Shown here one piece after another: positions 10,367-57,635 of a stretch of DNA of 64,000 bases (position 1 is the first letter of the stretch; each line of letters opens with the position of its first letter). A program made the translations under genes and the position numbers. The notes below the pieces were generated by a model. The model was not told where the DNA came from. It saw only the letters and a list, made by a program, of their open reading frames with translations, and searched no databases. The stretch spans positions 1,674,001 to 1,738,000 of the forward strand of contig NZ_CP151636.1 of NCBI RefSeq assembly GCF_038397745.1, given 5' to 3'. Source of the DNA: Microbacterium sp. LWH11-1.2 (lineage in GTDB: Bacteria; Actinomycetota; Actinomycetes; Actinomycetales; Microbacteriaceae).

Positions 10367-10464
10367 GTTCGCAATTCAGCAAGAGTTCGGACGCGCGGGG
10401 CTCCTTCCCTCGGAATTCCGGGGGCCGTGATCGGGGCGCAGGGAGTTCTTGCTGAATTGTGAAC
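10367..10464. repeat. Palindromic element, family 1 (98 bp copy)
   Basis: Terminal inverted arms GTTCGCAATTCAGCAAGA (10367-10384) and TCTTGCTGAATTGTGAAC (10447-10464) match at 17 of 18 positions around a GC-rich centre. Related copies occur at 26558-26643 and 56843-56928. It occupies most of the gap between the lacI gene and araD and encodes no protein, resembling a small non-autonomous palindromic element. Confidence 0.85.
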
Positions 10465-26557: not shown

Positions 26558-26643
26558 GTTCACAATTCAGCAAGAATCCGGCGGATGTGCCCGGAAAGGA
26601 CTCGCCAGAGCCGGTGAAGCCATGATCCTGCTGAATCATGAAC
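26558..26643. repeat. Palindromic element, family 1 (86 bp copy)
   Basis: The left end GTTCACAATTCAGCAAGAAT and right end GATCCTGCTGAATCATGAAC are imperfect inverted arms matching the element at 10367. It fills the 101-bp gap between convergent stops of the enoyl-CoA hydratase and YdeI-like genes, so it could also end transcription. Confidence 0.85.
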
Positions 26644-55614: not shown

Positions 55615-56664
55615 GTGCACGGTGAATACAAGGTTCCAGGAGGAAAGCTGGTCGTCGTCGACCTCGACGTCGAAGACGACAGGATCGCGCGTTTCCGACT
55701 CGCCGGCGACTTCTTCCTCGAGCCCGACACGGCGCTCGACGACATCAACGCCGCCGTGAACGGCCTGGCGGTGGAGTCGGATGCGACGGTCATCGCCGCC
55801 GCGGTGCGCGAGGCTCTGCCCGACGGGGCCCAACTGCTCGGCTTCACGCCCGAAGCCGTCGGCACGGCCGTGCGCCGCGCACTGGTGACCGCACCGGGCT
55901 GGCGCGACTTCGACTGGGAGATCGTGCACGACAAGGCCGTCTCGCCGCGGATGAACCTGGCCCTCGACGAGGTGCTCACCTCGCGCGTCGGCGAAGGGCG
56001 CCGCCGGCCGACGCTGCGCATCTGGGAGTGGGACGAGTCCGCCGTCGTCATCGGGTCGTTCCAGTCGTACCGCAATGAGGTCGACCCCGAGGGCGCGGCC
56101 CGGCACGGCTTCGACGTCGTGCGCCGAATCTCCGGCGGCGGGGCCATGCTCATGGCCGCGGGACAGATCATCACGTACTCGCTGTACGTTCCGGCATCCC
56201 TCGTCGCGGGCATGACGTTCGCCGACTCCTATGCGTTCCTCGACGACTGGGTGCTGCAGGCGCTGCGGTCGCTCGGGATCGATGCGGTGTACCAGCCGCT
56301 CAACGACATCGCGAGCCCGACCGGCAAGATCGGCGGCGCCGCGCAGAAGCGCCTCGCGAACGGCGGGGTGCTGCACCACGCCACGCTCTCGTACGACATC
56401 GACGGTCAGACCATGACCGAGGTGCTGCGCATCGGCCGCGAGAAGCTGAGCGACAAGGGCACGACCTCTGCGGCGAAGCGCGTCGACCCACTGCGCAGCC
56501 AGACCGGGCTGACCCGCGCCGAGATCATCGAGCGCTTCAAGGACACCTTCCGCTCGCTGACGGATGCCGAGACGGGCACGATCGCCCCCGACGAGTACGT
56601 CGCAGCCGAAGCCCTCGTGGAGTCGAAGTTCGCCACCGAGGCGTGGCTGCATCGGGTGCCGTGA
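55615..56664 (+). CDS. lplA: Lipoate-protein ligase A with accessory domain first
   Basis: A 349-residue protein. The catalytic biotin/lipoate ligase domain (residues ~100-349) has VVIGSFQSYRNEVD, VRRISGGGAML and the lysine in ASPTGKIGGAAQKR. Residues 1-90 (HGEYKVPGGKLVVVDLDVED, FFLEPDTALDDINAAV) look like the accessory C-terminal domain of E. coli LplA, here placed at the N-terminus. It activates lipoate with ATP and attaches it to dehydrogenase E2 subunits. GTG 55615 has TAAGCT 6 nt upstream, so it is probably leaderless. Confidence 0.9.
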   Translation: MHGEYKVPGGKLVVVDLDVEDDRIARFRLAGDFFLEPDTALDDINAAVNGLAVESDATVIAAAVREALPDGAQLLGFTPEAVGTAVRRALVTAPGWRDFDWEIVHDKAVSPRMNLALDEVLTSRVGEGRRRPTLRIWEWDESAVVIGSFQSYRNEVDPEGAARHGFDVVRRISGGGAMLMAAGQIITYSLYVPASLVAGMTFADSYAFLDDWVLQALRSLGIDAVYQPLNDIASPTGKIGGAAQKRLANGGVLHHATLSYDIDGQTMTEVLRIGREKLSDKGTTSAAKRVDPLRSQTGLTRAEIIERFKDTFRSLTDAETGTIAPDEYVAAEALVESKFATEAWLHRVP

Positions 56665-57635
56665 CCGACCCTTCGACGGGCTCGGGGGCCCCGGCGTCGA
56701 AGGGCTCCGTCACGATCATCGAGGGCGACAACCTCGTCGCCGCGGCGTCTCTGCCCGCGGCATCCTTCACCCTCGTCTATCTCGACCCGCCGTTCAACAC
56801 GGGTCGCGCGCAGGAGCGGCAGGTGGTCACCGCGCGACGCGCGTTCACAACTCAGTCAGAATCCGGGGAACCGGCCGCTGACGGGGTCTCGCCGGCCGAT
56901 TCCGCGCCGGTCTTGCTGAATACCGAACACGCGGATGCCGCGACCGAGGTGCGGCGCGGGTTCCACGGGCACGCCTACGAGCGGGTGCGCGGGATGCTGC
57001 GCGCGTACGACGACAGCTTCGACGACTACGGGGCGTTCCTCATGCCGCGGCTTGAGGAGGCGTGGCGGCTCCTCGCCGACGACGGCACCCTCTACCTGCA
57101 CCTCGACTACCGCGAGGCGCACTACGCGAAGGTCATGCTCGATGCGGTGTTCGGGCGGGACTGCTTCCTCAACGAGCTGATCTGGGCCTACGACTACGGA
57201 GCGAAGTCCCGGCGCCGCTGGCCGACCAAGCACGACACGATCCTCGTCTACGTGAAGAACCCGCGCGAGTACGTCTTCAACTCCGAGGATGTCGACCGTG
57301 AGCCGTACATGGCGCCGGGGCTCGTGACGGCGGAGAAGGCGGCCCGGGGCAAGCTCCCCACCGATGTCTGGTGGCACACGATCGTGCCGACGACCGGGCG
57401 CGAGAAGACCGGGTATCCGACGCAGAAGCCCGAGGGCATCCTGCGCCGCATCGTCACGGCGTCGAGTCGTCCCGGCGACCGCGTCCTCGACCTCTTCGCC
57501 GGCAGCGGTACGACCGGGGCGGTCGCGTCGGTGCTCGGCCGCGATGCGGTGCTGGTCGACGACAATCCCGAGGCCGTCCGCGTGATGACCGAGCGGATGC
57601 CGCACGCCGAGGTCATCTCGTCCTCCGGTCGTTGA
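56661..57635 (+). CDS. Site-specific DNA methyltransferase (N6-adenine/N4-cytosine) with palindromic insertion
   Basis: The 324-residue product has motif IV YLDPPFNTGRAQ near residue 40 and motif I as DLFAGSGTTGAVA near the C-terminus, the beta-class order. Between them lie GYPTQKPEGILRRIV and a target-recognition part. Two oddities: residues 2-12 derive from a degenerate genomic repeat, and residues about 61-90 are encoded by an 86-bp palindromic element between motif IV and FHGHAYERVRGMLRAYDD. The frame stays open, so the protein may still be made. GTG 56661 overlaps the lplA stop. No restriction gene is adjacent. Confidence 0.85.
   Translation: MTDPSTGSGAPASKGSVTIIEGDNLVAAASLPAASFTLVYLDPPFNTGRAQERQVVTARRAFTTQSESGEPAADGVSPADSAPVLLNTEHADAATEVRRGFHGHAYERVRGMLRAYDDSFDDYGAFLMPRLEEAWRLLADDGTLYLHLDYREAHYAKVMLDAVFGRDCFLNELIWAYDYGAKSRRRWPTKHDTILVYVKNPREYVFNSEDVDREPYMAPGLVTAEKAARGKLPTDVWWHTIVPTTGREKTGYPTQKPEGILRRIVTASSRPGDRVLDLFAGSGTTGAVASVLGRDAVLVDDNPEAVRVMTERMPHAEVISSSGR
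56669..56692 (+). repeat. Degenerate interspersed repeat at the methyltransferase 5' end
   Basis: The variant with CTTCGACGGGCTCGGGGGCC is read as PSTGSGAP in frame. Confidence 0.7.
56843..56928. repeat. Palindromic element, family 1, inside the methyltransferase gene
   Basis: GTTCACAACTCAGTCAGAAT at the left and TCTTGCTGAATACCGAAC at the right match the ends of the elements at 10367 and 26558; the total length (86 bp) equals the second copy. The arms are degenerate, and the unit contributes about 29 codons in an open frame. Confidence 0.8.

Follow-up and report, generated by a model that had tools for sequence, protein, structure and literature searches.

The parS site of plasmids P1 and P7, which works with ParB and IHF, has two arms around a bend, is ~84 bp long and is sensitive to helical phase; it combines a conserved box with a discriminator box that differs between species. 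On chromosomes, the sites of Noc and SlmA are dispersed and biased to one part of the chromosome, with matS as the terminus counterpart, and all of these are single short palindromes with a stable consensus. REP/BIME sequences with their RAYT and MITEs are dispersed intergenic palindromes, some in local pairs. Rickettsia palindromic elements (RPEs) are described as short palindromic DNA that lies in frame in unrelated genes and elsewhere, each being ~150 bp long and encoding a conserved peptide (PMC10969869).

Here we describe the arms, the spacing rule, the A+T phasing, the orthologous persistence and the joint arm switching of an element of Microbacterium that lies in frame in five protein families; we interpret it as a two-armed DNA site that is old and has been maintained, and not as a mobile palindrome of recent capture. 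Its residence in unrelated genes resembles that of RPEs, but neither peptide nor interior is conserved, the length moves in helical turns and the arms change by lineage. The likeness to P1/P7 parS is one of architecture: two arms, helical spacing and A+T phase are seen and a bend is predicted, whereas the element is chromosomal, has ~25 copies and goes with no matching extra ParB that we could find. Like the Noc and SlmA sites, its sites are dispersed, and in most of the genomes checked they seem biased to one part of the chromosome; unlike the Noc and SlmA sites, they have two arms, phased spacing and shifting dialects. The element shares with REP/BIME sequences and MITEs its dispersed, mostly intergenic palindromic form and some local pairs, but a Y1 transposase was absent from the 45 genomes searched, the interior is not conserved and the length is quantised; dispersed copies that share internal sequence, a feature of MITEs, were not seen among 116 elements of eight genomes. 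The open-access literature searched yielded no description of such an element. Its surprising features are the phased spacing, the randomisation of the interior and the switching of dialects at fixed sites.

The element and its copies in the genome

The window, that is, the whole stretch of DNA analysed (64,000 nucleotides), belongs to a genome of 4.22 Mb in a single contig. The in-gene unit occupies positions 56843–56928 (86 bp; FTTQSESGEPAADGVSPADSAPVLLNTE) within the reading frame of a DNA methyltransferase, where the preliminary description had placed it. Its body (56844–56927, 84 bp) consists of a 19-bp 5′ arm on the plus strand (56844–56862; TTCACAACTCAGTCAGAAT), a 46-bp interior (56863–56908) and an inverted 19-bp 3′ arm on the minus strand (56909–56927; minus-strand reading TTCGGTATTCAGCAAGACC), each arm having four mismatches to the arm consensus used. 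The interior matches the interiors of none of the others among the 116 elements. The frame stays open across the body, as had been reported, but the insert amounts to 28 residues (61–88) and not to 29 (about 61–90). A sister element at 26559–26642 (84 bp, L003) has the same kind of ends, which bears out the claim that the in-gene unit shares its ends with an element at 26558, and a third element at 10368–10463 (96 bp) is intergenic according to a simple gene finder; the same site is occupied in genome G005 (L152).

A 20-base arm pattern with up to three mismatches gave four matches in the window and none in each of 100 shuffles, and in the whole genome it gave 26 matches compared with none for the reversed pattern; the ends of the in-gene unit recur elsewhere in the genome. 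Two arm searches at this threshold found 26 and 32 arms (reversed control, 0), which resolve into 24 elements of 83–84 or 96 bp. A family profile, built from 60 elements of seven genomes, adds one more at 597308, so that the proposed dispersed family does exist, with 25 copies in this genome, mostly intergenic, and further members inside other genes. The profile matches the in-gene element at positions 1730842–1730928 of the contig (G000:C1) with an E value of 6e-13, the methylase copy being itself one of the 60 elements used.

Arms, spacing and A+T phasing

Each arm is ~19 bp long and reads TKCACAAYTC, then a lineage-specific core and, in most cases, AGAAC. The lengths of the 116 elements from eight genomes, found by a scan that ranged from 70 to 149 bp (70–109 bp in the window's own genome), fall into classes of 73–74 bp (9 elements), 82–85 bp (84), 95–96 bp (21) and 105–106 bp (2), and all 32 elements away from ~84 bp sit on ~11-bp steps. 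The shortest class is confined to one genome, G121, where it accounts for nine of the ten elements. From centre to centre, the arms are 54, 65, 76–77 or 86–87 bp apart. In the 83–84-bp elements, the A+T fraction peaks at positions 17–18, 27–28 and 37–38 from each end, with a period-10 A+T power of 2.31 against 0.14 ± 0.08 after shuffling; periods of 9 to 11 bp are almost as strong. The whole-turn spacing, together with A+T on one face, suggests a bent duplex that would bring the two arms to one protein assembly.

Arm shuffling within genomes, applied to 110 first-class elements with the second class (6 of 116) left out, gave 1745 matches between arms of one element and 1753 ± 11.5 between arms of different elements (p 0.78). 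The arms of one element show no extra likeness to each other, which argues for separate recognition sites and not for a hairpin. Only at arm column 2 do the two arms of an element tend to agree (p 0.0045), and when the second arm class (TCCACAACTCCGGAG) is included, both arms are of one class in 103 of the 116 elements compared with an expectation of 93 ± 2.2. An element thus belongs to one arm class, and within the class each arm follows the genome consensus independently. The tendency of an element, where classes are mixed, to have both arms of one class and the agreement in column 2 would also result from a fold-back or conversion process, which counts against our reading.

A hairpin of RNA or single-stranded DNA, for instance a terminator of transcription or a processing site, would account for the complementarity of the arms and for the G+C-rich stems of several interiors (20 of 110 fold with z < −2), and the median distance of 32 bp from an element to a gene 3′ end, measured with the simple gene finder, is also in its favour. 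We nevertheless regard a hairpin as very unlikely: pairing between the arms of one element is not in excess, steps of 11 bp suit the turn of a duplex and not a stem, the median fold z of the interiors is −0.4, and copies reside in coding DNA in three frames and, in 11 of 110 cases, between divergent genes. The other contexts of these 110 elements from eight genomes, assigned with the same gene finder, were tandem genes (48), convergent genes (39), an open frame (10) and unknown (2); in one of the ten open-frame cases (L172) the gene start is probably over-extended and the element really upstream of the gene.

Two further observations concern element structure. Second-class elements (TCCACAACTCCGGAG and variants) adjoin first-class ones at gaps of 10 or 21 bp, which are helical steps (L115, L120, L121 and L122 in G001, and L181 in G143). 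Fifteen 96-bp elements from several genomes have a recurring centre resembling CCSCGNAA/TTNCGSGG, which the 84-bp elements do not show.

Distribution, orthologous sites and arm dialects

In other species, the common TTCACAAYTC is followed by the cores AGC, AGG, AGT, CTC, CGG or CAC. With as many as two mismatches allowed, 26 of 149 Microbacterium genomes contained the AGC-type arm pattern and 27 the CTC-type, these matches taking in neighbouring cores too. The family profile matched 114 of the 149 Microbacterium genomes (E ≤ 0.01), 24 of 150 genomes of the family, with 19 of 85 genera (E ≤ 0.001, the window's genome counted), and, among 198 genomes sampled from the phylum, none but that of the window itself; all of these counts are lower bounds, at most 29 candidates per genome having been scored for genus and family and at most 22 for the phylum, with both strands counted. 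The remaining 35 of the 149 genus genomes had no profile match (30 of 135 among those at least 90% complete), so the system would be either dispensable or unrecognised there.

Comparison of flanks identified 52 orthologous pairs in 16 groups, with a best flank identity that averages 87 percent; to be accepted, a pair had to align near the element in both flanks, a single flank being enough if the second was absent. Identity in these pairs is 0.78 for the arms (random arm pairs, 0.76), 0.59 for the interior (random, 0.53) and 0.63 for the 25 bp outside, and 40 of the 52 pairs agree in length to within 2 bp, while seven differ by about one helical turn (9–13 bp) and five by two (20–24 bp). Interiors are nearly random between species, with arms and spacing kept, and elements stay at shared intergenic sites from species to species. 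At several sites both arms have switched to another dialect (L003/L157, L005/L156/L180 and L026/L161/L184), so that the arms of one site can be AG-type or CT-type depending on the species; the site of the 26559 element, for example, has CTCC-type arms in G117 (L157), and in G001 (L122) its arms are CAG-type. Because arms are kept, and even updated, at old sites, the element does not behave as an insertion left to drift.

Among the 116 elements, interiors are shared within a genome by neighbouring copies only: tandem copies 140–202 bp apart (L124, L187, L188 and L193) have 14–40 interior bases in common, and dispersed copies do not. Between genomes, interior matches are limited to orthologous sites and two stretches of 14–15 bases (L117/L141 and L126/L142). 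The preliminary description had taken the in-gene copy as direct evidence that the family moves into genes, an interpretation that this pattern and the many copies at orthologous sites do not support.

The methyltransferase gene

The host gene lies at 56664–57635 on the plus strand (323 amino acids read from 56664; the open reading frame runs from a GTG at 56643) and matches PF01555 over nearly its full length (E 1.2e-40, 140 bits). The upstream frame at 55615–56664, which may encode a lipoate-protein ligase, overlaps the longest methylase frame (56643–57635) by ~20 bases. Motif IV, DPPF, corresponds to residues 41–44 (56784–56795), and the insert starts 16 residues later. The named close relatives of the methylase are from Microbacterium, and a homologue is present in 141 of the 149 genus genomes (E ≤ 1e-30).

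The motif DPPFNT(G/A) was recovered at 68 of 70 methylase loci; 41 of the 68 hold the element at the same place, and the other 27 have different, mostly shorter linkers, relatives without the element having diverged at its borders. In genera outside Microbacterium (Agromyces, Cryobacterium, Labedella, Herbiconiux and others), no such arms were read at this site; the scan of these genera flagged 30 of 74 loci with false positives and served for reading linkers only, of which five were read by eye where the script gave none, and one locus gave no motif. The methylase copy is therefore an in-frame insertion relative to the other Microbacteriaceae genera read, but it is present in most of the Microbacterium methylases read, and this excludes recent capture. 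Taken together, the sequence comparisons point to an insertion that is old within Microbacterium and has been repeatedly lost or gained; the tree does not say which. Methylases that lack the element are not confined to element-free genomes, as we had supposed at first: the profile finds elements in G034, G080 and G096, whose methylases have none.

The two arm cores, typed partly by eye in the 41 methylases, have the same first two letters in 35 genes, 31 of which share the third letter too, and disagree in six. Of the 39 genes with a pair, 33 had an automatic arm span of 84 bp (17) or 96 bp (16); the remaining six spans were spurious or misplaced and were re-read by eye. The automatic pairing missed G127, G002 and G003, made wrong pairs in G135, G122, G108, G078 and G111 and a false pair in G052. 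On the methylase tree, a quick tree in which 8 of the 65 inner branches are starred, each arm changes 13 times and element presence 17 times, and on the starred branches only three independent dialect switches can be paired (p 0.25). In some genomes (G117 and G143), the methylase arms deviate from the main dialect. The six disagreements, the small number of paired switches and these deviations weigh against our reading.

That the element is inactivating the enzyme, as the preliminary description had offered as one option, is suggested by its position in the loop after motif IV, but we consider this extremely improbable given the open frame, the intact PF01555 domain, the gene's presence in nearly all genomes of the genus and the element's presence in 41 of 68 genes. 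In the structure model, pLDDT is below 50 over residues 45–101 and averages 60 overall, which supports only that the linker is not confidently modelled as structured. An old insertion would probably be tolerated here, since the linker is of low confidence and variable length and both 84 and 96 bp are whole numbers of codons.

Other host genes and residues that follow the DNA

In-frame copies were also found in an ATP-NAD-kinase-like protein (L020), in an MTS-domain methyltransferase (L066 and L164), in the second ATPase domain of an ABC-F protein (L027 and L149, with L153 as a candidate at the same site) and in an ABC exporter between its membrane and ATPase domains (L142 and L185). With the DNA methyltransferase, the hosts comprise five protein families and three reading frames; the other frames read VHNSAR..LLNTE in ABC-F and AQLSKN in the MTS methyltransferase. 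Among 120 ABC-F homologues, 112 were readable, with a segment of 24–25 residues in five and 43–55 in 107, and of 120 NAD kinase homologues 20 were readable by motifs, with 11–26 residues in nine, 53 in seven and more in four. The insert is missing from the methylase, ABC-F protein and NAD kinase of strain K24 (P0164, P0252 and L263); EST19A lacks it in ABC-F (P0152) and, if it is the same as G116, also in the methylase (L194). In K24 and EST19A/G116, it is as if the in-gene sites had been lost together. In some ABC-F proteins (P0156, P0176 and similar ones), the residues encoded by the arms look decayed, the linker being as long as usual.

The encoded residues vary with the dialect. In 95 scored of 120 methylases, Q occurs with LN/LS in 62, P with RS in 20, P with LN/LS in 13 and Q with RS in none; in 43 scored of 120 ABC-F proteins, A occurs with LN/LS in 16, A with RS in 3, S with LN/LS in 1 and S with RS in 23, all counted irrespective of relatedness. 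Judged from these comparisons, the in-gene amino acids change to follow the arm dialect. The presence of similar residues in many of the 120 close methylase homologues might instead point to a linker conserved as a functional peptide of the methylase. This is scarcely credible when ABC-F and the MTS methyltransferase read such DNA in other frames and spacers hold it as well, when the residues swap with the dialect, and when 27 of 68 methylases manage without an insert in a region of such low pLDDT.

The clearest competitor is a selfish mobile palindrome, of the MITE or RPE type, that enters spacers and genes and whose persistence at the same sites reflects inherited old insertions. Its inverted ends and similar lengths, its in-frame copies in five protein families and its presence or absence among related species in methylase, ABC-F and NAD kinase are what such an element would show. 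We still think it unlikely: apart from the two 14–15-base matches, interiors are shared by neighbours or orthologous sites only, and the arms of old copies match the current dialect though their interiors are randomised, which dead insertions would not do. In addition, a Y1 (RAYT) transposase was found in 0 of 45 genomes by a search that was positive in 5 of 14 control genomes, and two exact arm patterns occurred in no viral contigs; a RAYT-driven element was accordingly rejected. The family may nevertheless have had an ancient mobile origin.

A predicted binding protein and position on the chromosome

We propose instead, with a probability of roughly two in three, that the elements are ancient pairs of sites, selected at the DNA level, at which one trans-acting protein binds and bridges or wraps the DNA. 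Each arm would be recognised on its own by this predicted protein, the two inverted arms would have to share a helix face, and the A+T-rich steps about every 10 bp would allow the intervening DNA to curve around the protein, so that one protein might bridge or wrap the site. The specificity of the protein would drift between lineages with the sites following, and the methylase site would be an old insertion that is tolerated. Such pairs of sites would amount to a natural experiment: across species, dozens of them appear to co-evolve with a single factor, and several proteins carry residues that are set by a DNA site and not by what the protein does. They would also set right the view that palindromes inside genes are newly inserted mobile DNA.

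An extra ParB was tried as the binder and rejected, as ParB copy number does not track the elements. A single ParB_N match was found in 17 of 23 element-rich genomes (those at least 90% complete among 25 with at least 27 profile matches) and in 14 of 22 element-free genomes picked among the 35; with counts this similar, the elements are not accompanied by an additional ParB.

The clustering of elements around the origin in most, though not all, of the genomes checked prompted the further suggestion that the network of sites organises the chromosome around the origin. On this suggestion, Microbacteriaceae would have an undescribed chromosome-organising system in which a predicted protein bridges ~25 two-armed, helically phased sites around the origin, its specificity drifts between species and drags the sites along, in-gene ones included, and the amino acids of several enzymes are rewritten by selection at the DNA level. 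We put this forward tentatively, as a possibility somewhat short of even odds; should the factor prove to have this role, actinobacteria would have a new system of this kind. Not every genome shows origin clustering, since in G031, which has at least 29 profile matches, the three placed elements counted (C1 1646251, 1858110 and 2101776) lie in the terminus half (0 of 3 in the origin half). Among the matches listed, with weaker sites possible elsewhere, the origin half as marked by dnaA contained 20 of 20 clusters in G000, 16 of 16 in G001, 9 of 9 in G005, 14 of 14 in G117 (omitting 9 AGC-pattern matches), 4 of 4 in G126 and 11 of 15 in G121. Partial lists gave 15 of 15 in G083 and 4 of 4 in G128, and a short list with ParB as the marker gave 2 of 2 in G069.
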